Assembly: GCF_027460065.1 (NCBI RefSeq)
Contig: NZ_JAPYZZ010000003.1
Location: 186,001 to 250,000 of the forward strand
Direction: 5' to 3'
From: Martinezella rhizogenes
GTDB taxonomy: Bacteria > Pseudomonadota > Alphaproteobacteria > Rhizobiales > Rhizobiaceae
DNA length: 64,000 nucleotides
In this document: positions 1-13,836 of the stretch, piece after piece
How the letters are laid out: the number at the start of each line of letters is the position of its first letter
Position numbering within the stretch: the stretch's first letter is position 1
Notes under the pieces: generated by a model
The model's database searches: none
Seen by the model: only the letters and a program-made list of their open reading frames with translations
What the model was told of the DNA's origin: nothing
Position numbers and translations under genes: made by a program

Positions 1-2342
1 TGGTGATGCAGCACAAGGCTGGTATGGGTGTGCCGGCCCTTACCGATGACGCCCGAGACCAGCGCGCCTTTGAGCGGCTGTTCGTCGACATCATGCATCG
101 CAAGCAAGGGCTCGTAGACATCATCCCAGCGCGAGGCGAAATAGAGCCCGCGCTCCTTGTCCCAGCCCGCCCAGTCGGCGGCGTCGATGACGTTGGGGCC
201 TGTCAGCAGCGGGTGATCGGGCAAAAGAACCGTCACCTCCGCTTTCGGGTCCGTCACCCGCCAGCGCAGTGACGGCTTGCCGATTTCGAGACGCCGAACC
301 GGCGTTGTCTCCGGGTTCCAACCATCCGTCGGACGATGATAGAGCGTAACCAGATGCCCGCCATTCTCCACGAAACGATGGAGCCTCTCCGTTGCCGCGG
401 CCAGATCCCTGCGGATGCCGAAGGCGAATATGCCAACGACAATGGTGGTGAAGGAGGAGAGATCGCCGCCGAGCGCCTGTGCATCGAGTTCGGTGACATC
501 GAGACCCATTCGCGCTAGCCAGAGGCCCACCCTGTCGGCACCGCCGCCGATATAACCCACACGGGCGCCCTCCGGCAGTTTGAGGTCCAGCGAGAGGATT
601 TTGAGGGCGGAAGGGGCAAGAAATCTTGCCCTGCCGATATGGGGATAGGCGATGGGGGTAATCTGAAAGGCCGGTTGCGAACCGACGCTCGCTTCTATCT
701 CAGCAAGGCCGGGCGCCGTTTCTCCAGTGCGTTCGGCCAACCAGTCATCACCACTCTTGCGCACGCTCCAGCCACCGGCAGCGCGAAACGAAACCGGTGC
801 ATCAGCACCCTTGATTTGAACCTGAAAACCCTGTGCGCCCTGCCCTTGCCCAAGCGGAACCAGCAGCGCCTCAGGCGAGATCATCAGCGACTGCGCGGGC
901 GTCACAAAAAACGGTTCCTCCAGATCGTAGAAGGCGGACACCTCACGGCCTTCAACCTTTGCTGCAAGGCGCACCGAGGCATGACCATTGCCGCCCGCTG
1001 CTTTCCAGTCCGGCTGATAGAGCCCGGAAACCGGGGCATCCTGATCAGCGGCAAGCGAAAAGACCAGCGTCTGGCCACGCGACTGAACCGACGACGAAAC
1101 ACCGGAAGGCAGGACCGGGGCGATCTCAACTTCAAATTCAGCCGCCCTGTCGGCCAGTTCCACATAAAGGGCCGACCTTCCACCCGGAACGATCTCCGCC
1201 GGTTCGGCATAGGCCCGCTCGAAAAGATCGAGTGCAGTCAGAATGGTCGCATCAACCTGCGCCCGTTTGCGTGCGATCCTGTGCCCGTGCAACACCTTGA
1301 AATCCGCGCTCGCGGTCTCGTCGACCTTCTGCAACAGCGCGGCTGTGCTCAGGAGTTGCGCCGTGATGCTTCGCCTGTCGGGAAAGGCCGAAATTGCCTC
1401 GGCGATGGCCCGTTCCGCCTCCACCAGTGCATTTACCAACTCGCCATCCAGACCCGGGAATGCGGCAAGATCGGCAAGAGAAGACGGCAGATTGTCGAGG
1501 ATCGAGCTTTCTTCGCCCCCCGCACCACTGGAAAGTTCGAGATGCAGCGGCCAGACTTCCTGCGCCTGCTTCGGCCAATGGCCCATCCCCTGTGAAGCGT
1601 GGTAATAACGCGACCACTCCCCGATGCGGTCATATTGCGCACCGGTTGCCTGTTCCTTGCCCGGCGCGTTCACCGTCAGTGTTGTTTCCGGCGGCGGCAC
1701 TTCATCGTCATAGGTATCGCCACCGCCCGACCATGCCGGAAGGTAGAACTTCGCCACCCGCCACGGCTTGAGCCCCTCGGCAAAATGCTCCGGATAGGCC
1801 GAAGGATCGGCGGCCAGCGTGATTGCACTTTTCGCCGCGCGCGTCATGGCGCGGTGGTGGCCATGCTGTCCCGGCACATCGAGAAAGGTAGGGATGACGA
1901 TATCCGGCCGCTCCTTGCGATAGGCGCGGACCAGCCTTTCGACGATGCGCTTCTGCCCCCAGCGGTCAAAAGTTTGGTCGCCATCCTTCGAGAAACCAAA
2001 ATCGTGGATGATATCCGCCGGGCCATGGCCGAGCCAGCTGATGTCAGCATCAATGACACGCGCGGCCTCCTCCAGCTCCCGCGACCGGATGACGCCGAGC
2101 GCGCCGAGCCGCTCCGGCCCCAGCGCATTCTGCCCGCCCTCGCCGCGTGTGGAGCAGGCGATGATGATACGCATGCCGAGTTCCATGCGGAAATAGGCGA
2201 GAAGTCCGTTCTGCTCATCGTCGGGATGCGCCCCGGTATGCATGACGGTGACTGTGGATTTCAGCGCGCTCAGCTTGCGGTGCAGGCGAATAAGCCATGG
2301 ATCGGCCATCTGCCGTTCGATGCGCTCCCGGGGATTAAGCAT
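1..2342 (-). CDS. PIG-L (LmbE) family deacetylase, C-terminus cut by the window edge
   Basis: The frame is open from an ATG at 2342 to the left edge, about 780 residues. The N-terminal domain has the PIG-L zinc motif AHPDDE (residues 38-43) and a second His cluster PGQHGHHRAM (about 157-166). PIG-L enzymes are zinc hydrolases that remove acetyl groups from GlcNAc-like substrates. The protein is far longer than a bare LmbE domain (about 230 residues). The part at about 590-720 (VGYIGGGADRVGLWL and onward) looks like a glutamine-amidotransferase/ThuA-like fold. The start lies 19 bp after the ROK regulator stop, so the two probably form one transcript. Divergence from the sugar-type ABC operon suggests a role in breaking down the imported substrate. 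Family is confident; substrate is unknown. Confidence 0.85.
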   Translation of the reverse strand, partial: MLNPRERIERQMADPWLIRLHRKLSALKSTVTVMHTGAHPDDEQNGLLAYFRMELGMRIIIACSTRGEGGQNALGPERLGALGVIRSRELEEAARVIDADISWLGHGPADIIHDFGFSKDGDQTFDRWGQKRIVERLVRAYRKERPDIVIPTFLDVPGQHGHHRAMTRAAKSAITLAADPSAYPEHFAEGLKPWRVAKFYLPAWSGGGDTYDDEVPPPETTLTVNAPGKEQATGAQYDRIGEWSRYYHASQGMGHWPKQAQEVWPLHLELSSGAGGEESSILDNLPSSLADLAAFPGLDGELVNALVEAERAIAEAISAFPDRRSITAQLLSTAALLQKVDETASADFKVLHGHRIARKRAQVDATILTALDLFERAYAEPAEIVPGGRSALYVELADRAAEFEVEIAPVLPSGVSSSVQSRGQTLVFSLAADQDAPVSGLYQPDWKAAGGNGHASVRLAAKVEGREVSAFYDLEEPFFVTPAQSLMISPEALLVPLGQGQGAQGFQVQIKGADAPVSFRAAGGWSVRKSGDDWLAERTGETAPGLAEIEASVGSQPAFQITPIAYPHIGRARFLAPSALKILSLDLKLPEGARVGYIGGGADRVGLWLARMGLDVTELDAQALGGDLSSFTTIVVGIFAFGIRRDLAAATERLHRFVENGGHLVTLYHRPTDGWNPETTPVRRLEIGKPSLRWRVTDPKAEVTVLLPDHPLLTGPNVIDAADWAGWDKERGLYFASRWDDVYEPLLAMHDVDEQPLKGALVSGVIGKGRHTHTSLVLHH

Positions 2343-2361: not shown

Positions 2362-3588
2362 TCAGCCGGGCACCTGCGTTGCGGCACCCGAGGACGTCTC
2401 GAGTTTTGGTGTGACGATGTCGAACAGCGGCAGGGCGGCAGCGCCGAGTGCTGCCGTCAGCTGTCCGGATTTGCCGTGCATGACGCGCGGCAACTCCCTT
2501 TGCCGCCGGCTCGCGACCGAGGTCGGCAGATGCCCCATCTGCGCAATGATCTCGCTGATGATGGCTTCGGGCAACGCACCGCCGAGAATGACCGTCTGCG
2601 GATCGAGAATGTTTTCCAGCATCGCAACCATGGGCGCCAGATGGGCCGCGGCCTCGTCGATCCACTCCATCACCACAGGATGGCCTGCCTTGAACAGGGC
2701 GTCGAGATCGTCAAGTTCCGTATCGGCAACACCGGCGCGCCCAAGTTTTTCCTTCAGCACGTAAGCCGAGGCATAAGCTTCGAGACACCCTCTCTGCCCG
2801 CAGGAGGGGCAAAGCCTGCCCTTTGGTGAAACGGTGACATGGCCGATTTCGCCGGCATTTCCGAACGCGCCGCGATAGGGCGCACCATCCTGAATGATGC
2901 CAAGACCGATACCGACGCCGAAATAGATCATGCAGAAATTGGGGATCGCCAGCCCCGCGCCGAACAGGCGCTCCCCGACAGCCGCGGCTGTCGCGTCATT
3001 TTCCACCACCACCGGCTGGCCGCAGGCATCGCTCAGCATCTGGCGGGCATCGATGCCGCCCCAGCCGGAAAGGGTCGTTGGCCCCACCGATGTCATGCCA
3101 TCGATCTCAAAAGGCCCCGGCATGACGACGCCGGTGCCGAGCAGTCTACATCCGAGATTTTTCGCGACCGTCGCATGCTCGGCCGCAAAGGTCTTGAATA
3201 TGGCCTCCGGCGTTGTGTCCCTGAGCGGCGTGACGCGATGGGTGCGCAGCACTCCCGCCAGATCGAGGCCGACGGTGACCATGTGGTCAGCCGCGATTTC
3301 TACGCCGATCGTCGCGCCGCCATCGGGATTGACAGCGAACTGGATCGGCGGCTGGCCCCTGCCGGTGCGACGGCGGCCGAGTTCCTTCAGCAACTCCTCA
3401 CCCACCAGCTCATCGACGATATTGGCGACTGCCTGGGCTGTCAGATGGGTGATCTTGGCGATCTGGGCGCGGCCGAGCGAGCCGTGCCGGCGCACAAGGT
3501 CGAGGACGACTCGCCTGTTGTGCTCGCGGCTGCGCTCAGGATTTTTTCCGATTGCTACGGGATAGGTATCTACCGTGTGCACCGTCAT
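2362..3588 (-). CDS. ROK family transcriptional regulator
   Basis: Numbered from the ATG at 3588, an N-terminal winged helix (about 25-75) is followed by a ROK sugar-kinase-like domain. Visible are VENDATAAA (195-203), GEIGH (246-250) and the ROK zinc cluster CPSCGQRGC (260-268), with H250 as the fourth ligand. The fused helix-turn-helix makes it a repressor of the NagC/Mlc/XylR type, not a simple glucokinase. An in-frame ATG at 3621 is possible; 3588 is preferred because a GGGACGGGG stretch precedes it. It is divergent from the ABC operon starting at 3847 and upstream of the PIG-L gene. It probably controls both in response to a sugar or amino sugar. Confidence 0.88.
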   Translation of the reverse strand: MTVHTVDTYPVAIGKNPERSREHNRRVVLDLVRRHGSLGRAQIAKITHLTAQAVANIVDELVGEELLKELGRRRTGRGQPPIQFAVNPDGGATIGVEIAADHMVTVGLDLAGVLRTHRVTPLRDTTPEAIFKTFAAEHATVAKNLGCRLLGTGVVMPGPFEIDGMTSVGPTTLSGWGGIDARQMLSDACGQPVVVENDATAAAVGERLFGAGLAIPNFCMIYFGVGIGLGIIQDGAPYRGAFGNAGEIGHVTVSPKGRLCPSCGQRGCLEAYASAYVLKEKLGRAGVADTELDDLDALFKAGHPVVMEWIDEAAAHLAPMVAMLENILDPQTVILGGALPEAIISEIIAQMGHLPTSVASRRQRELPRVMHGKSGQLTAALGAAALPLFDIVTPKLETSSGAATQVPG

Positions 3589-3648
3589 CTCTTCAATTTC
3601 CCCGTCCCTTAGAAAATTCATAGCGTCCAAATGACGATAAGCGCAATA

Positions 3649-3678
3649 CAATAATTCAAGTAAATTATCTTATTGACA
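3649..3678. promoter_or_regulatory. AT-rich inverted repeat and -35-like TTGACA between ROK gene and ABC operon
   Basis: CAATAA (3649-3654) and TTATTG (3670-3675) form an inverted repeat around an AT-rich core, overlapping TTGACA (3673-3678) that reads toward the ABC operon. No convincing -10 was found at the right spacing. AT-rich dyads are the usual ROK operators, so this is the best operator candidate in the 258-bp divergent region. The rest of that region shows nothing else clear. Confidence 0.35.
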
Positions 3679-3846
3679 AATGCCCGTGTTCGGAGAACCG
3701 TAGAGAACGACCGGGGGTCAGGCTCGTATGGGGTGGGATACGGAAATTCCCGTTACCGGCCGAGTCAATGAGCGCGCGCGAAAGCGCGGATAAAGGGAAC
3801 GATCACTCCGCATCCGGAAGACCGGACGGAGGAAATGGAGGGTTAC

Positions 3847-5100
3847 ATGCGCAGGGCAACTCTGTTCGCCGGCTTGGTCGCCGGTTTCAGCACATTTGCA
3901 TTCAACGCCGCGCAGGCGGTTGAAATCGAATATTGGCAATATGTCTTCGACACACGCGTAAAGGCCATGGATGAGCTGATCGCGGAATTCCAGAAGGCCA
4001 ATCCTGACATCACCGTCAAGCAGGTGACCTTTCCATACGCCGATTACCAGACGCGCGTCATCGCCGCCAATCTTTCCGGCAAAGGCCCTGACGTGATGCA
4101 GCTGTTCTACGGCTGGCTGGACAAGTTCGCGGCCGGCGGCATCCTGCAGCCGCTGCCTAAAGATGCCTTCCCGCATGACAAGATCGAAAGCGAATTCTTC
4201 CCGATCGTCAGCGCGATGAAGCGCGGCGACGATTATTACGGCCTGCCGACGGCGGTTCGCTCGCTGGCGCTGTTCTACAACAAGAAGCTCTTCACCGAGG
4301 CCGGTCTGGACGCCGCCAATCCGCCGAAGACGCTTGATGAATTCGTCGCTGCGGCGGAAAAGATCGCCAAACACGACGCCGCCGGAAATCTGACAGTTGC
4401 AGGTTCCACGCTCGACATGGGCGGCCAGGACCACCAGTGGTGGCGTGAAGTCCTCATTCGCCAATATGGTGGCGAACCCTATGCCGACAACGACCAGAAA
4501 GTGACCTATAATAGCGAGCCGGGTATTCAGGCCCTGAAATTTTACACCAGCCTGCAGCTTGAAAAGAAGATCGGTCAGGTCGGCTTCATGGATGAAGGCC
4601 AGGCCGCCTTCCGCGCCGGCAAGGCTGGCATGACCATCGACGGCACCTTCCGGCTGGGCTCGTTCCGCACCATCAAGGATTTTGAGTGGGGCGTGACCGA
4701 GCTTCCCACCAATGACAAGAACATCCGCTCCAACTATGCGAGCTATTTCGCCAACGGCATCAGCGCCAAGACGACGGGTGAAGAGCTTGAGGCCTCCAAG
4801 AAATTCCTCGCCTATATCTCTTCGCCAGAGGCCATGGCGATCTGGCTGAAGACGGTGGGCGAACTGCCGGCGCGGCGTTCTGCAGCGCTGACCGAAGAAA
4901 ACCTGAAGGACCCGATCTACGCACCGTTCCTGAAGGGTCTAGAATATGCCCATACAACGCTGTTCATGGATGAGGCTGCCCAGCGGCAGAACGCCATCGA
5001 TATGACCAACCGGGTCCTGCTCGAAGGTCAGTCGGTCGAAGATTCCGTCAAACAGGCAGCTGAAGCCGAGCAGGAAATCATCAACGCGGCGAAACCCTGA
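3847..5100 (+). CDS. Family 1 extracellular solute-binding protein of a carbohydrate-type ABC importer
   Basis: The 417-residue protein begins with a Sec signal peptide (MRRATLFAGLVAGFSTFAF) and a likely cleavage after AAQA. The body is a MalE/UgpB-type binding protein: EIEYWQYVFDTR, a FNKKLF-like strand (LFYNKKLFTEAGLD) and GKAGMTIDGTF. The ATG at 3847 is chosen over the in-frame ATG at 3835 because GGAGG lies 5 bases before 3847, whereas the upstream ATG has its Shine-Dalgarno too close. It is the first gene of the operon, and the permease follows after 17 bp. It captures the substrate in the periplasm. Homologues bind sugars, sugar alcohols or glycerol phosphates; the ligand cannot be read from sequence. 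Confidence 0.92.
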   Translation: MRRATLFAGLVAGFSTFAFNAAQAVEIEYWQYVFDTRVKAMDELIAEFQKANPDITVKQVTFPYADYQTRVIAANLSGKGPDVMQLFYGWLDKFAAGGILQPLPKDAFPHDKIESEFFPIVSAMKRGDDYYGLPTAVRSLALFYNKKLFTEAGLDAANPPKTLDEFVAAAEKIAKHDAAGNLTVAGSTLDMGGQDHQWWREVLIRQYGGEPYADNDQKVTYNSEPGIQALKFYTSLQLEKKIGQVGFMDEGQAAFRAGKAGMTIDGTFRLGSFRTIKDFEWGVTELPTNDKNIRSNYASYFANGISAKTTGEELEASKKFLAYISSPEAMAIWLKTVGELPARRSAALTEENLKDPIYAPFLKGLEYAHTTLFMDEAAQRQNAIDMTNRVLLEGQSVEDSVKQAAEAEQEIINAAKP

Positions 5101-5117
5101 AAACCGCAGGTTCAGAC

Positions 5118-6059
5118 ATGACAGCGATAGATCAACAGGGGGCGGTATCCGGCCGCCCCGGCGGCTCCTTCGGAGATCGCCTTTCCATGCGCACGAAACG
5201 GCTTTTGTGGATCTGGAGCTTTCTGGCGATCCCGATCTTGTTTTACAGCGTCATCCGGTTTTACCCGACGTTGCAGGCCTTCTATCTGTCCTTCACCAAC
5301 TGGGACCTGCTGCGGCCGGCAAAATTCATCGGCATCGCCAATTACGTCAAGCTGTTCAAGGACCCGCAATTCTGGAAGGTGTTCAAGAACACCTTCACCT
5401 ATCTCATCGTCGGCACGCCGATCAGCCTCGTGCTGGCTTTCGTCATCGCCTTTTATCTCGACCGGGTGCGCATTCTGCACGGGTTCATCCGCGCGCTTTA
5501 TTTCCTGCCCTATCTGACGACGGCCGCCGCCATGGCCTGGGTCTGGCGCTGGTTTTATCAGCCGCCGCCCATCGGCATCATCAACGACGTGCTCGGCATG
5601 ATCGGCATTCCCCAGCAGCCATTTATCCGATCCACCGATCAGGCGCTTTATTCCGTCATGGTAACCGCCATCTGGGCGGGGCTCGGCTTCCAGATCATCA
5701 TCTTCATGGCCGGCCTGCGCGCCATTCCAACAACATTCTACGAAGCCGCCCGCATCGACGGGCTGGGTGAATGGGCAATCCTGCGCAAGATCACGCTTCC
5801 GCTCCTGAAGCCTACCACCGTTTTCCTCGTGGTGTTTTCCTCGATCGGTTTCCTGCGGATTTTCGACCAGGTCTATAACATGACCACCAATGATCCGGGC
5901 GGGCCGCTCGGCTCCACCAAACCGCTGGTGCTGATGATCTACCAGACCGCATTCAATTCCTATGCGATGGGTTATGCCGCTGCGCAGACGGTCGTCCTGT
6001 TCACCATTCTTCTTGTCGTGTCGCTGGTCCAGCTCTGGGTGCTGAGGGAAAAGAAATGA
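5118..6059 (+). CDS. ABC transporter permease, MalF/UgpA type
   Basis: A 313-residue inner-membrane protein with about six hydrophobic segments, the first at residues 28-48. The EAA loop that docks on the ATPase is visible as EAARIDGLGEWAILRKITLP (210-229). Length and order fit the first permease of a CUT1 carbohydrate importer. It ends in a 4-bp ATGA overlap with the next permease, a sign of translational coupling. It forms the pore with that partner. Confidence 0.93.
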   Translation: MTAIDQQGAVSGRPGGSFGDRLSMRTKRLLWIWSFLAIPILFYSVIRFYPTLQAFYLSFTNWDLLRPAKFIGIANYVKLFKDPQFWKVFKNTFTYLIVGTPISLVLAFVIAFYLDRVRILHGFIRALYFLPYLTTAAAMAWVWRWFYQPPPIGIINDVLGMIGIPQQPFIRSTDQALYSVMVTAIWAGLGFQIIIFMAGLRAIPTTFYEAARIDGLGEWAILRKITLPLLKPTTVFLVVFSSIGFLRIFDQVYNMTTNDPGGPLGSTKPLVLMIYQTAFNSYAMGYAAAQTVVLFTILLVVSLVQLWVLREKK

Positions 6060-6898
6060 GCGAAGCCTTGCCACTCTCCCACGCCCGCATCCGCCCCGGC
6101 CGCATCGTCGCCTGGACGCTGCTGTTCATTGGCGGCCTGATCATGGTTTCGCCGCTGCTGTTCATGTTCGCGACCTCGTTCAAGACGGCGGATCAGGTCT
6201 ATGATCTCAGGCTCATTCCCGCGGCACCGACAATTGCGAACTACATGACCGTGATGGCCGATGGCCGTTTCCTGCGCTGGTTCTTCAACTCGACACTGGT
6301 TGCGGTTCTCGTCACCGTCTCCAACTGCTTTTTCGACAGTCTGGTCGGTTATACCCTGGCGAAATTCGAGTTTCGCGGGCGCTACTTCATCTTCCTCGCC
6401 ATTCTTTCCACGCTGATGATACCGACGGAAATGCTGGTCATCCCGTGGTATCTGATGTCCAGCCAGCTGGGCTGGCTCGACAGCTACTGGGGCATCATGT
6501 TCCCAGGCATGATGACGGCCTTCGGCACCTTCCTGATGAAGCAGTTCTTCGAAACGGTTCCGAACGATTTCCTCGAGGCGGCGCGCGTCGATGGGCTGAA
6601 CGAATTCCAGATCTGGTGGAAAGTCGCCCTGCCACTGGTGACGCCGGCGCTCTCCGCACTCGCGATCTTCACCTTCCTCGGCAACTGGACAGCCTTTTTC
6701 TGGCCGCTGATCGTCACGACAAGCAAGGAACTCTACACCCTGCCGGTCGGTCTTTCGAGCTTCGCGGTAGAACAGCAAATCCAGTGGGAAATGATCATGA
6801 CGGGCGCAGCCATTGCGACCATCCCCACCCTCATCGTCTTCATCGTCCTGCAACGCTACATCGTGCGCGGTGTGATGCTGGCGGGCCTGAAAGGATAA
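6056..6898 (+). CDS. ABC transporter permease, MalG/UgpE type
   Basis: A 280-residue inner-membrane protein with about six membrane segments and the EAA loop EAARVDGLNEFQIWWKVALP near residues 177-196. Its ATG overlaps the stop of the previous permease. It is the second half of the CUT1 pore. The lyase-like gene follows only 4 bp after the stop, so that enzyme is inserted between the permeases and the ATPase of the same operon. Confidence 0.93.
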   Translation: MSEALPLSHARIRPGRIVAWTLLFIGGLIMVSPLLFMFATSFKTADQVYDLRLIPAAPTIANYMTVMADGRFLRWFFNSTLVAVLVTVSNCFFDSLVGYTLAKFEFRGRYFIFLAILSTLMIPTEMLVIPWYLMSSQLGWLDSYWGIMFPGMMTAFGTFLMKQFFETVPNDFLEAARVDGLNEFQIWWKVALPLVTPALSALAIFTFLGNWTAFFWPLIVTTSKELYTLPVGLSSFAVEQQIQWEMIMTGAAIATIPTLIVFIVLQRYIVRGVMLAGLKG

Positions 6899-6902
6899 TA
6901 TC

Positions 6903-8417
6903 ATGGCCGATATCAACCCGCGCCAGTCGGATACCAGCAAGTTTCCCGATCCCGTTTACAAGGAAACCGTGCTGCGCCCGCTTTTCGACGGCGCCAAGAA
7001 CCACCATGTCGACGGCTTCCGCCGCATAGACCGCGCTCATCTGGTCATGCTGCGCGAGACCGGCATTCTCGATGCCGAAACAGCAGCCAAGATCGCCGGC
7101 GCGCTTGAGGATATCGACAGGACCATCGAAACATCGGAGCTTGTTTATACCGGTGAAGTGGAGGATTTCTTCTTCCTGATCGAGAAGGAGCTGAAAGCCC
7201 GCATCGGCGTCGATGTAGCCGGCCGCCTTCACACGGCGCGTTCGCGCAACGATATCGATCACACCTTGTTCAAGATCGGCCTCAAGGACAAGATCGACAC
7301 GCTCACCGCCAAGGCGCGCGTTCTCTTAAAAGCGCTGATCGATGCCGCCGAGCGCAATCAATCCACGCTGATTGTGGCCTATACGCATGGGCAGCCGGCC
7401 CAGCCCACCACCTTCGGCCACTACCTTTCCGCCGCCATCGAGGTGCTGATCCGGGATATCGAGCGTTTTGCCGAAGCGCGACGTATCGTCGATCTTTCGC
7501 CGATGGGCGCCGCCGCCATCACCACCTCGGGCTTCCCCATCGACCGGGCGCGTGTTGCCGAATTGCTCGGCTTTGCCGCGCCACTGCGCAATTCCTATTC
7601 CTGCATCGCCGCCGTGGATTATACGACAGCGACCTATGGCGCGATCGAACTGATGTTCCTGCATCTCGGAAGGCTCATTCAGGATTTCCAGTTCTGGACG
7701 AGCTTCGAAGTCGGCCAGATCTACGTGCCGAATTCGCTGGTGCAGATTTCCTCAATCATGCCGCAGAAGCGCAACCCGGTGCCGATCGAACATCTGCGCC
7801 ACCTCGCCAGCCAGACATTCGGGCGGGCACGGACCATGCTGGATGTGATGCATAACACGCCCTTCACCGACATGAATGACAGTGAAGGCGAGACGCAGGG
7901 CATGGGTTATGAAGCCTTCGCCTCCGCCGGCCGGGTTCTCGACCTTCTCGCCAGCCTCGTTTGCCAGATCAGCATCGATCCTGAAAGGGTCGACCAGAAC
8001 ATTCGCCGTTCCTGCATCACCATCACGGAACTGGCGGATTCGCTTGTTCGTATCGAAGACCTGTCGTTCCGGCAGGCGCATGAAATTGCCGCGACCGTCG
8101 CCAAAAGCGTTGTCGCGCTGAAAGGCGATCTGCCGAATGACGGCTACCAGCCGTTCCGCAAGGCCTTCCATGAACTGACAGGGCGCGACACCGGCATCGA
8201 CGAGGAAAAATTCAGGCAGATCGTCTCGCCGGAACATTTCGTCGCCGTTCGCAGCCGCTTCGGCGGCCCCGCCCCCGCGCCGATGCGGGAGGCCATTGCG
8301 GCCTATCGAGACAAGCTTGGTGAGTTGGCAGCGGAAGCGCAGCGATCCGCCGAGCACGAAGCGGCGAAGGCCGCCGAACTGGCAGAGAAATTCACCGCCC
8401 TGACGGGAGCGCGATAA
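6903..8417 (+). CDS. Argininosuccinate-lyase-like enzyme (fumarase/aspartase superfamily)
   Basis: The 504-residue protein matches the argininosuccinate lyase fold. It has RSRND (113-117), the general-acid region YTHGQPAQPTTFGH (160-173) and the superfamily signature SSIMPQKRN (283-291) with the catalytic serine. These enzymes cleave a C-N bond and release fumarate. Two positions depart from housekeeping ArgH: RSRND is followed by ID rather than Q, and the signature begins ISS rather than GSS. The gene lies between permease and ATPase with gaps of 4 bp and -1 bp. That position suggests a catabolic lyase acting on an imported N-substituted aspartate/succinate compound, as EDDS and iminodisuccinate lyases do, rather than arginine synthesis. 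Family is confident; reaction is inferred. Confidence 0.8.
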   Translation: MADINPRQSDTSKFPDPVYKETVLRPLFDGAKNHHVDGFRRIDRAHLVMLRETGILDAETAAKIAGALEDIDRTIETSELVYTGEVEDFFFLIEKELKARIGVDVAGRLHTARSRNDIDHTLFKIGLKDKIDTLTAKARVLLKALIDAAERNQSTLIVAYTHGQPAQPTTFGHYLSAAIEVLIRDIERFAEARRIVDLSPMGAAAITTSGFPIDRARVAELLGFAAPLRNSYSCIAAVDYTTATYGAIELMFLHLGRLIQDFQFWTSFEVGQIYVPNSLVQISSIMPQKRNPVPIEHLRHLASQTFGRARTMLDVMHNTPFTDMNDSEGETQGMGYEAFASAGRVLDLLASLVCQISIDPERVDQNIRRSCITITELADSLVRIEDLSFRQAHEIAATVAKSVVALKGDLPNDGYQPFRKAFHELTGRDTGIDEEKFRQIVSPEHFVAVRSRFGGPAPAPMREAIAAYRDKLGELAAEAQRSAEHEAAKAAELAEKFTALTGAR

Positions 8418-9457
8418 TGGCGACAATCGAACTCAATCAACTCGTGAAGCGCTACGGCAAGGTCGAAGCGGTCAAAGGCATAGACCTGGCCATTGAAGAC
8501 GGCGAATTCGTCGTTTTTGTCGGTCCTTCCGGCTGCGGAAAATCCACCACGCTGCGCATGATCGCCGGGCTGGAAGAGATTTCCGACGGCACGTTGAAGA
8601 TCGCCGGAAACATCGTCAACGAGAAGGAACCGAAACAGCGCAACATCGCCATGGTCTTCCAGAACTATGCGATCTACCCGCATATGACGGTTCGCCAGAA
8701 TATCGGCTTCGGGCTTTACACCGCAAAACTCGACAAGACGGAAAAGAACCGGCGCATCGAAGAGGCCGGCCGGGTGCTGGGGCTTGAGGCCCTGCTCGAC
8801 CGCCGTCCCGCGGCCCTGTCGGGCGGCCAGCGCCAGCGTGTCGCCATCGGCCGCGCCATGGTCCGCGATCCCGCCGCCTTTCTGTTCGACGAACCACTAT
8901 CCAATCTCGACGCTCAGTTGCGCTCGCAGATGCGCATTGAAATCAAACGCTTGCACCAGCGTCTTAAGACAACAACCGTCTACGTCACCCATGATCAGGT
9001 GGAAGCCATGACCATGGCTGACCGTATCGTGGTGATGAAGGACGGTCATATCCTGCAGGTCGGCACACCGACGGAACTTTACGAAACACCCGTCGATATT
9101 TTCACCGCCCGCTTCATCGGCAGCCCCTCGATGAACCTCATGCGGGGTTCAAGAACAACCAGCAGCGTCGCCCCCTCCGCGACGGGTGACCTTCTGGTCG
9201 GTGTTCGTCCGCATGACCTGCTGGTTGGAGAAAGCCAAGCCCCGCAGGGAACGTTTACGCTTGAGGGAACGGTAACGGCTGTCGAGCCGCTCGGGCCAGA
9301 GACGCTTGTTCATCTGGACACCGACGCGACCTCGGTGATTGCCACGGCCAGAGGCAAATCCATTCCCGTTGTCGGCAGCCGGTTGCAATGCAGGGCGGAA
9401 GCAGGTTCGCTTTATCTTTTCGATGCCAAAACGGAAAAGCTTCTGGGCCGCGCATGA
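8417..9457 (+). CDS. ABC transporter ATP-binding protein, MalK/UgpC type
   Basis: A 346-residue ATPase with Walker A GPSGCGKST (36-44), signature LSGGQRQR (134-141), Walker B FLFDEPLSNLD and the switch His in VYVTHDQ. The C-terminal third is the OB-fold regulatory domain of MalK-type proteins (GVRPHDLLVG). The start ATG shares one base with the lyase stop. It powers import through the two permeases encoded upstream. It ends in an ATGA overlap with the kinase gene. Confidence 0.93.
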   Translation: MATIELNQLVKRYGKVEAVKGIDLAIEDGEFVVFVGPSGCGKSTTLRMIAGLEEISDGTLKIAGNIVNEKEPKQRNIAMVFQNYAIYPHMTVRQNIGFGLYTAKLDKTEKNRRIEEAGRVLGLEALLDRRPAALSGGQRQRVAIGRAMVRDPAAFLFDEPLSNLDAQLRSQMRIEIKRLHQRLKTTTVYVTHDQVEAMTMADRIVVMKDGHILQVGTPTELYETPVDIFTARFIGSPSMNLMRGSRTTSSVAPSATGDLLVGVRPHDLLVGESQAPQGTFTLEGTVTAVEPLGPETLVHLDTDATSVIATARGKSIPVVGSRLQCRAEAGSLYLFDAKTEKLLGRA

Positions 9458-10347
9458 TGACAACAGAAAAAACAGCCGTCATCAGCGTCGGCCGGATCTA
9501 TTGCGACCTCATTTTCACCGGGCTCGATGAATTGCCCGTGCTCGGCCGGGAACTGTTTGCCCGCGACATGGAAATCGCCGCCGGCGGCGGAGCCTTCATT
9601 GCCGCGGCACATTTTGCCCATATAGGCCGCTCGGTTGCGCTGCTGGCAAGGCTCGGCACCGATACGTTTTCGCGTGATATCGGTGAAAAAATGGCGCAAA
9701 GCGGCGTGGACCTGCAATTTCTAGAACATGCAACAGATGCAGGACCGCAAGTCACGGTAGCGACAGTGGTCGGTCAGGACCGGGCATTTTTGACGCGCCG
9801 CGCTGGTGCCGCCCGGCCTTCGACGCTGGATGCCGCCTTTGCATGGGACAAGGCCCGGCATCTGCACATCGCCGAATTCGCTACTCTGCATGAGATGCCC
9901 GATCTGGTCTCGCGCGCCAAGGCAAGCGGATTGTCCGTTTCGCTCGATCCGAGCTGGGATGCAGCGCTGATCTATGACAAAGGCCTGCTCAAGGCCTGTG
10001 CCGGCGTCGACGTGTTTTTGCCCAATCTTGAAGAGGCCGAAGCGATCACGGGACATTCGGAACCGGAAGCGGCCATCAGGGCATTGGCGGAGGCTTTTCC
10101 GATCGTCGCCCTCAAAGGCGGCGCGGAAGGTGCATGGGTATCTTCTGCCGCTGGGCTTCACCATAGTGCAGCTCAGAAGGTTCCGGTGGTCGATACGACC
10201 GGCGCGGGCGATGCCTTTAATGCTGGTTTTCTTGATGCTTGGCTTCAGGCGCAGGACGACCAACATTGCCTCGAAGCCGGCATTACGGCGGGTAGCCTCG
10301 CAGTACAGGCGGCAGGCGGTGCACCCCAGGTGACCGCCGCCGCGTGA
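9454..10347 (+). CDS. PfkB family carbohydrate kinase (ribokinase-like)
   Basis: The 297-residue enzyme begins at the ATG at 9454 that overlaps the ATPase stop. A longer in-frame extension to 9388 lies inside the ATPase gene and is rejected. The PfkB signatures are AAGGGAFIAAAHFAHIG in the N-terminal half and DTTGAGDAFNAGF near the C-terminus, with the catalytic Asp in GAGD. Family members phosphorylate sugars or nucleosides with ATP. As the last gene of the ABC operon, it probably phosphorylates the sugar part released after import. The exact substrate is not known. It converges on betC with a 15-bp gap. Confidence 0.88.
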   Translation: MMTTEKTAVISVGRIYCDLIFTGLDELPVLGRELFARDMEIAAGGGAFIAAAHFAHIGRSVALLARLGTDTFSRDIGEKMAQSGVDLQFLEHATDAGPQVTVATVVGQDRAFLTRRAGAARPSTLDAAFAWDKARHLHIAEFATLHEMPDLVSRAKASGLSVSLDPSWDAALIYDKGLLKACAGVDVFLPNLEEAEAITGHSEPEAAIRALAEAFPIVALKGGAEGAWVSSAAGLHHSAAQKVPVVDTTGAGDAFNAGFLDAWLQAQDDQHCLEAGITAGSLAVQAAGGAPQVTAAA

Positions 10348-10362: not shown

Positions 10363-11877
10363 TCATTCCCCGCGCGGAAAACGCTGGTTTTCCTCCAGCA
10401 CGTTGAGGTCCATATGGTTGCGCATGTAGCGTTCCGAGGCCTTTTGCAGGGGCTGGTAATCCCACGGATAATAGGCGCCGTTGCGTAGCGCCTTGTAGAC
10501 CACCCAGCGCCGCGCCTGGCTTTCGCGAACAGCGGCGTCGAACACCGGCAATTGCCAACGCCGGTCAATCTCGGCGGAAAGCGATGAAAGCACATCGCTG
10601 AGAGCGGGATCGCCGGCAAGATTGATGCGCTCTTCCGGATCAGCCTCAAGATCGTAAAGCAGCGGCGGATCGGCCTCGCAGACCGAGAGCTTGTAGCGGC
10701 CGTCACGGATGGCGACGAGCGGCGTGATGGAGCCTTCAGCGGCATATTCCATCGGCACCGGGCCGCGCCCGCCGGTTCCCGCGGCCAGTGACGCCAGATC
10801 TTCGCCATCGGTCCAGCGTTTGAGCGAGGTTATATCGAGACCCGCCAGACCACACAGCGTCGGTGTGACATCGAGTGTCGAGACAGGGGCATCGATCAAA
10901 GCCGGCTGCCAACCGGGTGCGGCGATCATCAGCGGCACGCGGGCGGAGCCCTCGAAGAAACACATCTTGAACCACAGACCGCGCTCGCCCAGCATATCGC
11001 CATGGTCGGACAGGAAGAGAATGATCGTGTCCTCCTCCATCCGCGTCGCCTTCAGCACATCAAGGATTTCGCCGACCTTTTCGTCGATATAGGAGATATT
11101 GGCGAAATAACCGCGTCGTGCCCGGCGTATCTCTTCGGGCGAGATATCGAAAGCCCGATGGTCGCAGGCTTCCAGCAGCCGTTGCGAATGCGGGTCGTGC
11201 TCATCGAAGGAAAGCGCTTCCGTCTCGGGGTCGAGCGCCGGGCAATCCTCGTAGAGATCCCAGAATTTGCGCCGTGCCACATAGGGGTCGTGCGGATGGG
11301 TGAAGCTGACCGTCAGGCACCACGGCCGATCGTCGAGACGACGCGACAGATCGTAAAGCTTGCGGGTGGCGTGATAGGCCACCTCATCATCATACTCCAT
11401 CTGGTTGGTGATTTCGGCGACACCCGCGCCAGTCACCGAACCAAGATTGTGATACCACCAGTCGATCCGCTCGCCGGGCTTGGTATAGTCGGGTGTCCAG
11501 CCGAAATCCGCCGGATAGATATCCGTCGTCAGGCGCTCCTCAAAACCGTGCATCTGGTCCGGGCCGACGAAATGCATCTTGCCGGAAAGGCCGGTGTAAT
11601 AACCCGCCGCCCGCAGATGATGGGCATAGGTCGGGATATCGGAAGCGAATTCGGCGGCATTATCGTAGACCCGCGTGCGGCTCGGCAATTGCCCGGACAT
11701 GAAGGAGGCGCGGGCCGGCGCGCAGAGCGGGCTTGCCGTATAGGTGTTGGCGAAGCGGACGGACCGCTTCGCCAATGTTTTCAGATGTGGCGCGTGGAGA
11801 AAATCAGCCGGACCATCGGGAAAAAACGTCCCGTTGAACTGGTCGGCCATCAGGATCAGGATATTGGGACGCGGCAT
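10363..11877 (-). CDS. betC: Choline-sulfatase
   Basis: A 504-residue type I sulfatase. The formylglycine signature is CAPAR with the nucleophile Cys at residue 52. The metal site shows in NILILMADQ near the N-terminus and in FLSDHGDMLGERG, and the C-terminal tail has the choline-sulfatase pattern WDYQPLQKASERYMRNHMDL. It hydrolyses choline-O-sulfate to choline and sulfate. The start at 11877 follows an SD-like GGAAAG and lies 14 bp after the choX stop; the upstream extension of the frame lies inside choX. It forms an operon with choX and is likely controlled by the divergent LysR gene. Cytosolic; choline would feed glycine-betaine synthesis elsewhere. Confidence 0.93.
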   Translation of the reverse strand: MPRPNILILMADQFNGTFFPDGPADFLHAPHLKTLAKRSVRFANTYTASPLCAPARASFMSGQLPSRTRVYDNAAEFASDIPTYAHHLRAAGYYTGLSGKMHFVGPDQMHGFEERLTTDIYPADFGWTPDYTKPGERIDWWYHNLGSVTGAGVAEITNQMEYDDEVAYHATRKLYDLSRRLDDRPWCLTVSFTHPHDPYVARRKFWDLYEDCPALDPETEALSFDEHDPHSQRLLEACDHRAFDISPEEIRRARRGYFANISYIDEKVGEILDVLKATRMEEDTIILFLSDHGDMLGERGLWFKMCFFEGSARVPLMIAAPGWQPALIDAPVSTLDVTPTLCGLAGLDITSLKRWTDGEDLASLAAGTGGRGPVPMEYAAEGSITPLVAIRDGRYKLSVCEADPPLLYDLEADPEERINLAGDPALSDVLSSLSAEIDRRWQLPVFDAAVRESQARRWVVYKALRNGAYYPWDYQPLQKASERYMRNHMDLNVLEENQRFPRGE

Positions 11878-11891
11878 TTCGACTTTCCGGC

Positions 11892-12845
11892 TTAGAGACC
11901 AAGCTTGCCTTTGACAGCATCCGCACCCGGCTTGCCATCGAGCGTGGTGACGCCCTGCAGCCAGCCATCCAGCGCTTTCGGATTGGATTTCAGCCAGGCC
12001 GCTGCCGCCGCTTTGGAATCCTCGCCGCCAAGAATCGAGCCCATCAGGGTGTTTTCCATGCCGATATCGAACTTCAGGTTCGTGAAGAGCGTCGCCGCAT
12101 TCGGGCATTGCTGCGGCCAGCCGGTGCGGGCGAGCGTATAGACTTCCGCGCCGCCGAAATTCGGGCCGAAATAGGCGTCACCGCCGGAGAGATAGGCGAT
12201 ATCGATCTTCTCGTTCATCGGGTGTGGCGCCCAGGCGAGGAAGACCACCGCCTTCTTGTCCCTGCCCGCCCGCTCCACCTGCGCCAGCATGGCCTGTTCG
12301 CCGGATTCGACGAGCTGCCAGCCCTTGAGGCCGAAATCATTGGCGTCGATGATCTTCTGGATATTCTGGTTGGCCGGTGCGCCGGGCTCGATGCCATAAA
12401 TCTTGCTCTCGAACTCGTCGGCATGTTTGGAAAGATCGGCAAAATCCTTGACGCCCTTTTCCGCCATATAGGCCGGCACCGCCAGCGTGAACTTTGCCCC
12501 TTCAAGGTTCTTCGTCATCACCTCGGCCGCCTTGGCGGCGTTCAGGTCGTCGACGAAGGATTTCTGCGCCGGCATCCAGTTGCCGAGGAAAACGTCGATC
12601 TCGCCGTTTTTCATTGCCTGATAGCCGATCGGCACCGACAGCGTCTTGACGTCGGCCTCATAGCCCAGCGCATCAAGCAGGACGGAGGCGACGCCATTGG
12701 TGGCGGTAATGTCGGTCCAGCCGGGATCGCTAAGGCGGATCGTCTTGCAGGCCGCGTCATCGGCAGCCTGAAGCGGGGTGGAGAAGGCGGCCACGGACAG
12801 AATGAGACCGGCGGCGATGCGATGCAGATGAGAAATGGTTTTCAT
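11892..12845 (-). CDS. choX: Choline ABC transporter substrate-binding protein ChoX
   Basis: A 317-residue periplasmic protein of the OpuAC/ProX glycine-betaine family. It has a Sec signal (LHRIAAGLILSVAAFSTP, cleavage after LQA) and binding-fold segments such as LSDPGWTDITATNGVAS, VFLGNWMPAQ and WAPHPMN. ChoX of rhizobia binds choline with high affinity. The start at 12845 follows GGGGAG. Usually choX is followed by choW and choV; here betC follows directly and no permease or ATPase is present in the window. Import therefore needs transport subunits encoded elsewhere, or the protein delivers choline (sulfate) to another transporter. Confidence 0.9.
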   Translation of the reverse strand: MKTISHLHRIAAGLILSVAAFSTPLQAADDAACKTIRLSDPGWTDITATNGVASVLLDALGYEADVKTLSVPIGYQAMKNGEIDVFLGNWMPAQKSFVDDLNAAKAAEVMTKNLEGAKFTLAVPAYMAEKGVKDFADLSKHADEFESKIYGIEPGAPANQNIQKIIDANDFGLKGWQLVESGEQAMLAQVERAGRDKKAVVFLAWAPHPMNEKIDIAYLSGGDAYFGPNFGGAEVYTLARTGWPQQCPNAATLFTNLKFDIGMENTLMGSILGGEDSKAAAAAWLKSNPKALDGWLQGVTTLDGKPGADAVKGKLGL

Positions 12846-12939
12846 TGCGGCTCCCCTTTTATTAGTCCAGTTTATTGAACACCACGTTGCTTTTGCCTGT
12901 GAAGCGGGTATTTTTCGATGACTGATATAAGGAATTTTA

Positions 12940-13836
12940 ATGTCAGACCGACCGCTCGATCTGGGATGGATGCGCATTTTTACCGAGGTCGCCCGCCGCG
13001 GCAGCCTGACGGCGGCGGCGGCATCCCTGCGACTGACCCAGCCGGCCGTCAGCTATCAGATTCGCCGGCTGGAGGAGGAACTCGGTGTCGCGCTCATCCG
13101 CCGCAAACATCGCGGCATCGAACTGACGGCCGAGGGACAAAGGCTATTCGAGATCGTTTCGCGCAATGTCGACGCCATCGACCTTTTGGCGCAGCAGCTT
13201 CGCCGGACGGAGGAACGCCAGACCATCCGCCTGCACACGGACTATGCTTTTTCGTCTCTCTGGCTCATTCCCCGCATGCATGGTTTTCGCGTCCTCAACC
13301 CGGATATCAACATCCAGATCGTCGCCACGCAGGACCCGATGGCGCAAGGCAAACACGATAGCGACGTGATGATCATTTTCGGTACGCGGCAGGAAGCGGG
13401 CGACGGGGCTGTATTGCTGCTTTCGGAAAAGGTGACGCCGGTCTGCTCACCTGCCCTTCTGGCTGAAACGCCCGCCCCCGCGACCATCGCGGATTTTTCG
13501 CGACGCAAGCTCATCCATCTCGAAAACACCTCGCAAGCGCACTGGTTCGACTGGGCGGCCTATTTCAAGCATTTCGGTGTGCAGAGAGGTGCCGAACACG
13601 ATGGCGGCGATATCAGCTTCAACAATTACACCATGGTGGTGCAGGCAACCATCGGCGAACAGGGTTTCGCGCTCGGCTGGGCCGGGCTGGTCGATCCGTT
13701 GCTCGAGGCCGGCGTGCTGGTGACGGCCGGCCCGAGCCTCGATGCACCCGGTCGCGGCTACTGGCTGATGCGACCGAAAAGCAGCGACAGTGCCGTGAGG
13801 AAACTGACCGGCTGGCTGATCGACGAGCGGCGATAA
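12940..13836 (+). CDS. LysR-type regulator of choline sulfate use
   Basis: A 298-residue LysR regulator with an N-terminal winged helix (RIFTEVARRGSLTAAAASLR, LTQPAVSYQIRRLEEELG) and a C-terminal periplasmic-binding-like effector domain. It closely resembles the choline-sulfate-utilisation LysR family that accompanies betC. It is divergent from choX-betC across a 94-bp gap, the normal arrangement for a LysR protein acting on the neighbouring operon and itself. The ATG at 12940 is chosen because the conserved region begins at once (DLGWMRIFTEV). A small 6-bp hairpin (13827-13842) spans its stop codon before the convergent aldehyde dehydrogenase gene. Confidence 0.9.
   Translation: MSDRPLDLGWMRIFTEVARRGSLTAAAASLRLTQPAVSYQIRRLEEELGVALIRRKHRGIELTAEGQRLFEIVSRNVDAIDLLAQQLRRTEERQTIRLHTDYAFSSLWLIPRMHGFRVLNPDINIQIVATQDPMAQGKHDSDVMIIFGTRQEAGDGAVLLLSEKVTPVCSPALLAETPAPATIADFSRRKLIHLENTSQAHWFDWAAYFKHFGVQRGAEHDGGDISFNNYTMVVQATIGEQGFALGWAGLVDPLLEAGVLVTAGPSLDAPGRGYWLMRPKSSDSAVRKLTGWLIDERR

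Follow-up and report, generated by a model that had tools for sequence, protein, structure and literature searches.

The operon analysed here lies near the left end of a 64,000-nucleotide stretch of Martinezella rhizogenes DNA (assembly GCF_027460065.1, contig NZ_JAPYZZ010000003.1, positions 186,001 to 250,000), referred to below as the window, and is built around a homologue of argininosuccinate lyase. Six plus-strand genes are packed tightly at 3835-10347 and encode a binding protein, two permeases, the lyase, an ATPase and a PfkB kinase. Divergent to the operon are genes for a ROK regulator and an 800-residue PIG-L protein. Domains were assigned with Pfam and NCBIfam profiles, and the features are as follows (ABC, ATP-binding cassette).

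1..2342, minus strand: large PIG-L/LmbE-type N-deacylase, 800 amino acids from the first ATG (PF02585, 60.7 bits)
2362..3651, minus strand: ROK-family transcriptional regulator (PF00480, 153 bits; present in 82 of 87 loci)
3644..3675, no strand: putative operator palindrome CAATACAATAATT-N6-AATTATCTTATTG in the ROK/binding-protein intergenic region
3835..5100, plus strand: ABC solute-binding protein (Pfam SBP_bac_1, CUT1 type; Deinococcus counterparts 44-45% identical)
5118..6059, plus strand: ABC permease A (Pfam BPD_transp_1)
6056..6898, plus strand: ABC permease B (Pfam BPD_transp_1)
6903..8417, plus strand: lyase of the argininosuccinate lyase/fumarase superfamily (Pfam Lyase_1 and ASL_C2), proposed glucosaminyl-malate (glucosamine-C4-dicarboxylate) lyase
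8417..9457, plus strand: ABC ATPase, UgpC/MalK type (NF008653, 465 bits, above cut-off)
9454..10347, plus strand: PfkB-family sugar kinase (PF00294), proposed glucosamine kinase

An earlier, sequence-only reading had placed the lyase gene between permease and ATPase genes with gaps of 4 and -1 bases, which is exact (permease B ends at 6898, the lyase spans 6903-8417 and the ATPase starts at 8417). Its placing of a PfkB kinase at the operon end, with a ROK regulator and a large PIG-L protein across the promoter, was borne out by the Pfam and NCBIfam profiles. The kinase start is most likely 9454 rather than 9388, and the overlap with the ATPase stop is then 4 bases. The PIG-L gene extends 60 bases past the left edge of the window, where its stop codon was located. 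The start codon of the ROK gene is ambiguous, the palindrome at 3644-3675 overlapping the first codons of the longest frame. Intergenic scans covered 88 of the 99 loci described below. The palindrome core AATT-N6-AATTA was present in 59 of the 88 ROK/binding-protein intergenic regions, missing from the other 29, and found 0 times in the remaining 1.78 Mb of the same loci. Because the core is confined to that intergenic region among the loci scanned, the palindrome is probably the ROK operator, and the ROK protein would be a likely sugar-responsive repressor.

Conservation of the gene set

Genome loci were taken from the best 80 of 197 relatives found (lyase identity 74-97%), and 17 annotated plasmid regions were chosen for reading from 40 listed matches (345 records matched). 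Among those best 80, the closest lyase relatives are from Agrobacterium, followed by Neorhizobium, Aminobacter, Brucellaceae, Devosia and others. Genes were tallied by tblastn in 87 loci (80 genome and 7 annotated plasmid), with the lyase and the ATPase each found in 87, the two permeases in 86 and 86, the binding protein in 85, the ROK regulator in 82, and the PIG-L protein and PfkB kinase each in 78. Because 78 to 87 of the 87 loci hold each gene of the set, the association is not due to chance, and the operon is real. Twelve more distant loci were also inspected.

Of 289 alphaproteobacterial genomes sampled evenly, 11 (the window's own included) match at E 1e-90, all with at least 50% identity; in a 299-genome sample of the phylum, where matches were listed down to E 1e-60, the identity values fall from 56% to 37% with none between. 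The cluster, which the sequence-only reading had allowed might be restricted to this strain, is thus conserved in many Alphaproteobacteria, and a variant occurs on Deinococcus plasmids.

Three of five Deinococcus plasmid loci carry genes for a ROK protein, a lyase (33-36% identical), a binding protein (44-45%), two permeases, a small PIG-L protein and a PfkB-type kinase. The best model for the small PIG-L protein is MshB (145-161 bits, under the cut-off). A large PIG-L protein is additionally encoded in two of these three loci, one copy starting with an apparent signal peptide, and the lyases of these clusters have a common HN.PF.D.ND signature. No ATPase gene was found within the Deinococcus clusters read. 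Because three of the five loci hold the same kinds of genes, the gene set, and not the lyase alone, is conserved across phyla.

Clustering of the genes directly downstream gave EamA transporters (47), ROK kinases (3), NagB-II (3) and NagB (2). No other downstream group exceeded 4 members or showed an obvious link, save for oxidase and transporter groups. The unassigned EamA-family gene is on the PIG-L strand in 50 of the 99 loci, directly after PIG-L in 47, and is also found in the window's genome. Some EamA proteins export cysteine.

A record titled Bacillus subtilis SK6B4 (JAHREI010000008.1) encodes a lyase 76% identical to that of the window, with a downstream monooxygenase as in Pseudochrobactrum-type loci. 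This assembly is probably mislabelled or contaminated.

The lyase and its subfamily

The lyase resembles argininosuccinate lyase (ArgH) in fold, motif order and tested catalytic residues, and passes the cut-off of the NCBIfam argH model TIGR00838 (307.6-307.8 bits, cut-off 279.5), which can explain the argH annotation of its relatives. It differs in having an altered N-terminal segment, in belonging to a sugar operon, and in the substitutions described below. The host genome encodes six Lyase_1 proteins, one of which (at C8 in our numbering) is a typical ArgH. Because this separate protein scores 610 bits to TIGR00838 versus ∼308 bits, the window lyase is distinct from the arginine enzyme of the genome; the sequence-only reading had named a sole, normal argH as the case that would overturn it, and this is not what the genome holds. 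The best-scoring lyase model is PRK06705, a second NCBIfam “argininosuccinate lyase” family, at 332 bits, which is above the argH score and far under its own cut-off of 883.

Residues were compared between 21 subfamily members and 28 other lyases. S114, R115, N116, T161, H162, S283, K289, N291 and E296 are identical in 21/21 and 28/28, so that the earlier claim of preserved catalytic segments holds for all 9 residues tested; at the positions counted, the superfamily catalytic SRND, TH, SSxMPxKxNP and E296 are kept. R238, kept in 27 of the 28 other lyases, is V, A, C or I in all 21 subfamily members. Y323, K325 and Q328, each kept in 25/28, are D, N and E, respectively, in 21/21. K332 (25/28) is replaced by Q or H, Q118 (25/28) by I or M and L163 (26/28) by G. 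The sequence-only reading had noted departures at two positions near the active site. The departure is confirmed and the count is too low, at least six conserved positions differing (118, 163, 238, 323, 325, 328, 332). Lyase residue numbering happens to coincide with that of delta-crystallin, and R238, Y323, K325 and Q328 are presumably, from delta-crystallin work, contacts of the arginine side of the substrate.

A tree of 49 lyases was built from the window, 20 of the 99 subfamily loci, 27 of the 28 supplied other loci and the host's own ArgH, one row being dropped as too short or interrupted by a stop. The 21 subfamily sequences form a monophyletic group (support 1.0) whose sister is a Deinococcus lyase (0.992). 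Judged from sequence, the lyase represents a new subfamily of the argininosuccinate lyase/fumarase superfamily. Because the catalytic residues are common to all 49 and R238, Y323, K325, Q328 and others are replaced, the fumarate-forming part is intact, and the region presumed to accommodate the leaving group is rebuilt.

The lyase model has a predicted local distance difference test score (pLDDT) of 90, and its top Foldseek match is ethylenediaminedisuccinate (EDDS) lyase of Chelativorans BNC1 (6g3d, template modelling score 0.82), followed by ArgH. EDDS lyase is likewise a C4-dicarboxylate lyase with a non-arginine substrate; it differs in being only 26% identical in the structural alignment and in three residues, Q159, D290 and Y320, listed near its substrate in the available part of PMC12363623. 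The first two correspond to H162 and V293, and no Tyr occurs at or near the place of Y320 (M324 aligned, gap nearby). EDDS and iminodisuccinate, to which the sequence-only reading had pointed as substrates of related lyases, are therefore poor fits, and an EDDS-type lyase is disfavoured.

These data bear on a rival explanation of the operon, in which a sugar operon captured a second argininosuccinate lyase of the ordinary kind or a lyase of the EDDS/iminodisuccinate type. The TIGR00838 score and the match to 6g3d are what would be expected of such an enzyme, but the replacement of R238, Y323, K325 and Q328 in every subfamily member, the loss of the three EDDS-lyase residues and the presence of a true ArgH elsewhere are not, and the deaminase, kinase and deacylase neighbours would go unexplained. 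We consider capture very improbable, and an ordinary ArgH was rejected as the principal interpretation. Note also that an Agrobacterium vitis plasmid (L101:7989-15995) carries a different ArgH-like lyase, 33% identical, beside ABC permease genes and between transposase genes, a further pairing of a lyase with a transporter.

Deacylase, kinase and deaminase genes

The PIG-L protein, the only PIG-L match of the host genome, has an N-terminal PIG-L domain and a long C-terminal part. The PIG-L alignment was made without L049, L084 and L158 (proteins badly cut), and structure-based alignments omit plasmid-record rows and L029. HPDD and HGHH are invariant in 25 of 25 aligned sequences, preserving the HxDD + H metal motif given for the LmbE family in the available part of PMC4101496. 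The model (pLDDT 85) is matched best by MshB, LnmX, diacetylchitobiose deacetylase and BshB. MshB, diacetylchitobiose deacetylase and BshB act on N-acetylglucosamine (GlcNAc) glycosides; the function of LnmX is not known to us. The metal motif and nearest folds thus resemble BshB/Bca and MshB/Mca of the LmbE family, as does the MshB-like small PIG-L protein of Deinococcus. The protein differs from them in its 800-residue length with a large extra part, in the loss of BshB Arg109, and in falling under the curated cut-offs of Mca, MshB and BshB2 (BshB2, 27.9 bits versus 195.25). No PIG-L match to the BshB1 model was listed at E 0.001.

PIG-L is present in 87 of the 99 loci and absent from 12, of which L065 and L072 are truncated by contig ends. 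NagB-II is found in 6 of these 12, and all 6 NagB-II loci are without a large PIG-L protein in the cluster, which makes the deacylase an inconstant member of the gene set. The Falsochrobactrum genome (L079) gave no PIG-L match at all, and in three Brucella genomes PIG-L is limited to a small form encoded away from the cluster. Loci with and without PIG-L may be variants of one pathway, acting on an N-acyl substrate and a free amine, respectively.

Of the 99 loci, 9 carry a gene for glucosamine-6-phosphate deaminase (NagB or NagB-II) within the cluster or next to it. NagB adjoins PIG-L in Loktanella (L095) and follows the kinase in Devosia L085 and L091. It is also found in L190 (Paroceanicella), where ROK kinase and NagB genes overlap by 4 bases; L190 stands outside the 99-locus count and was found among eight further plasmid regions. 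The proteins of L095, L085 and L190 are over the curated nagB cut-off, and that of L091 is a homologue. NagB-II follows the kinase in the Brucellaceae loci L059, L073, L077 and L079 and in Roseomonas (L099). In L153 it adjoins the binding-protein gene, with a BadF-type kinase downstream whose best match, NagK, is below cut-off. NagB-II is the best family for L073, L099 and L153 (311-317 bits, under the cut-off of 430); L059, L077 and L079 are homologues. A ROK kinase takes the place of the PfkB kinase in 3 of the 99 loci and also in L190.

Among 30 cluster genomes, one NagB-II homologue (E 1e-40) occurs in 23, two in 3 and none in 4; the genomes with two are all Brucella, and one copy in each is that of the cluster. 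The only homologue at this threshold in the host genome is a NagB-II-like gene at C15. This gene belongs to a separate nag-type operon (G000:C15, L163:3561-6673) near sugar ABC genes, where a NagA-like protein and a ROK kinase are adjacent, as judged by eye.

Because these loci, a minority of those read, pair the cluster with NagB or NagB-II, glucosamine is probably the sugar product. The deacylation step, the amino-sugar product and the sugar phosphorylation imagined in the sequence-only reading are all supported by gene content. As in catabolism of GlcNAc and chitobiose by NagB-II, NagA and NagK, the operon pathway would end in glucosamine-6-phosphate and NagB or NagB-II; the operon adds the lyase and PIG-L protein, and the host has its separate nag-type operon at C15.

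Candidate pathway and substrate

In the proposed pathway, the CUT1 ABC transporter would import a conjugate consisting of N-acylated glucosamine carrying a C4-dicarboxylate. The PIG-L enzyme would strip the N-acyl group (acetate, or a cysteine part in the manner of the known amidase Bca). Lyase residue S283 would then take the C3 proton of a malyl group, and glucosamine would be expelled via its anomeric oxygen to leave fumarate, an elimination of the C-O type as in fumarase. The PfkB (or ROK) kinase would form glucosamine-6-phosphate, which a NagB or NagB-II encoded within the cluster or at another genomic site would convert to fructose-6-phosphate and ammonia. All substrates and the order of steps are ones that we infer. 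The lyase is likely to act on an amino-sugar conjugate, releasing fumarate and glucosamine. Scavenging and catabolism of an N-acylated glucosamine-C4-dicarboxylate, most likely glucosaminyl-malate from bacillithiol or GlcNAc-malate, is a plausible role for the operon that falls just short of being probable.

Bacillithiol is cysteine joined to glucosamine-O-L-malate (Cys-GlcN-O-L-malate); GlcNAc-malate, a precursor of it, shares this core. L-malate has the stereochemistry used by fumarase, and a hemiacetal oxygen should leave better than water. Glucosaminyl-malate was proposed because a glucosamine product, a deacylase and a fumarate-releasing lyase ask for such a core, and to our knowledge it is the only metabolite that combines an N-acylated glucosamine with a C4-dicarboxylate able to leave as fumarate. 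The identification of the conjugate as glucosaminyl-malate or bacillithiol is tentative. Mycothiol, raised by the MshB-like matches, was rejected as having no C4-dicarboxylate. According to the available part of PMC4101496, BshB makes GlcN-Mal (called glucosamine-maleate there), and the amidase Bca presumably lets GlcN-Mal be recycled.

The rather unlikely case that a different glycoside or conjugate, one bearing a malyl or aspartyl group or the like, feeds amino-sugar catabolism by the same chemistry draws equally on all of the evidence for an amino sugar and fumarate. It also gains from two loci (L147:9425-15153 and L150:9256-14893) in which the lyase is divergent from PIG-L and other genes, among them one for a peptide-type SBP_bac_5 binding protein, take the place of the CUT1 transporter. 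A transporter swap for the same substrate is possible there. However, we know of no such metabolite, and the cysteine-related neighbours described below would be left unexplained.

The sequence-only reading had imagined sugar-type import and cleavage of an N-succinyl type of conjugate to fumarate. Import and fumarate release agree with gene content, and the N-succinyl C-N substrate is not supported; the class of deacylase and the match with a metabolite already known point to O-linked malate, and C-O rather than C-N cleavage is probable. In a C-N version, glucosamine would be N-substituted by succinate, as in the Heyns adduct of fructose and aspartate, and the lyase would expel glucosamine by C-N cleavage, like argininosuccinate lyase and EDDS lyase. 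The nearest solved lyase relatives are C-N lyases, and the products, glucosamine again among them, would fit NagB and NagB-II equally well. The amine would however be alkylated and not acylated, leaving PIG-L, which is kept in 87 of the 99 loci and doubled in 2 of 3 Deinococcus clusters, without a task, and we regard this version as distinctly improbable. The order of steps might also differ, the lyase acting while the conjugate is still acylated and PIG-L then deacetylating free GlcNAc. The persistence of the lyase in the 12 loci (2 of them cut) without PIG-L, and a PIG-L fold like that of chitobiose deacetylase, would suit this order. Characterised LmbE enzymes of thiol synthesis, by contrast, act on the intact glycoside, as described in the available part of PMC4101496, and the different order is unlikely.

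Neighbouring genes are consistent with the cysteine half of bacillithiol in some species. A SufS-like pyridoxal-phosphate enzyme is encoded near the cluster in 4 of the 99 loci (Aminobacter L056 and L093, Devosia L085, Loktanella L095). It bears a conserved Cys motif, which we take to correspond to the SufS active-site Cys. In both Aminobacter loci (L093:3-2048 and the corresponding place in L056) the gene lies beside one for a Blh-like persulfide dioxygenase (561 bits, below the cut-off of 625), and the two kinds of neighbour, cysteine-desulfurase-like and persulfide-dioxygenase-like, would fit the fate of that cysteine. An N-methyl amino acid oxidase-type gene directly follows PIG-L in L080:1962-3134 and L082:1996-3135 and lies one gene further in L091:1021-2175. 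The L080 protein is over the N-methyl-tryptophan oxidase cut-off, and the other two are homologues; as a speculation, the oxidase may demethylate N-methylcysteine from N-methyl-bacillithiol. The available part of PMC6282198 (2018) suggests that, among low-molecular-weight thiols, bacillithiol and N-methyl-bacillithiol may have the widest distribution. Two further candidates were set aside. A cysteine dioxygenase beside the L097 cluster, annotated as such, has no family in Pfam (E 1e-4) or NCBIfam (E 1e-6) and was not counted; a metallo-beta-lactamase-fold protein inside L098, considered as a sulfur enzyme, has lactonases as its best matches.

No BshC over cut-off was found in any of the 26 cluster genomes searched (the host's own and 25 others, leaving out that of L075), the one match being 20.5 bits versus 265.8. 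Hosts searched do not seem to make bacillithiol, and its synthesis in the host was rejected on this ground; the substrate would consequently come from other bacteria. The fuller scenario is that a widespread operon of bacteria not making bacillithiol imports and consumes (N-methyl-)bacillithiol, with PIG-L freeing cysteine, the lyase splitting GlcN-malate, and, in some species, neighbouring desulfurase, dioxygenase and oxidase genes handling the cysteine. We hold this to be possible and rather doubtful.

Several observations weigh against the proposed glucosaminyl-malate pathway. The lyase passes the argH cut-off, and the nearest solved relatives of the binding protein carry only general sugar-binder annotations. 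The PfkB kinase is similar to ribokinases and further sugar kinases, with no known glucosamine kinase among them, and the window's own cluster is without a deaminase gene. In the PIG-L protein, the substrate-binding Arg109 of BshB is replaced by an invariant Gln159 (by motif spacing). The absence of PIG-L from 12 loci and the exchanged transporter of L147 and L150 count on the same side. Loci L094, L098, L149 and L155 have none of PIG-L, PfkB and deaminase, L187 shows neither a PIG-L nor a kinase gene, and Deinococcus L100 and L186 have only the lyase, binding protein and permeases. Cysteine genes are rare (4/99 loci), and the SufS-like gene is found in 6 of 30 cluster genomes, in 5 of the 6 outside the fetched locus.

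The known fructoselysine, glucoselysine and fructose-asparagine pathways resemble the operon in importing sugar-amino acid conjugates and using sugar kinases. They differ in proceeding by phosphorylation and a deglycase, with no fumarate-releasing lyase. No catabolic route for bacillithiol or GlcN-malate was found in the open-licence literature, and description elsewhere is possible; nor was any pathway with this gene set found in that literature, in agreement with the sequence-only reading. If the proposal is correct, this would be, as far as we could find, the first known bacterial catabolism of bacillithiol. The enzyme would define a new glycoside-eliminating lyase and, as far as we know, be without precedent in its superfamily in releasing a sugar from malate. 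Many genes annotated as argH, including most of the closer plasmid matches, would be misnamed, and thiol cross-feeding between Bacillus-like and rhizobial or marine bacteria would become testable. Even with a different conjugate, the operon would represent a new pathway for amino-sugar conjugates, found in two phyla or more.

Adjoining the operon, at 10363-12977 of the window, are a choline-sulfatase gene (889 bits to the equivalog model) and a gene for a choline ABC binding protein, both seemingly unrelated to the lyase operon.

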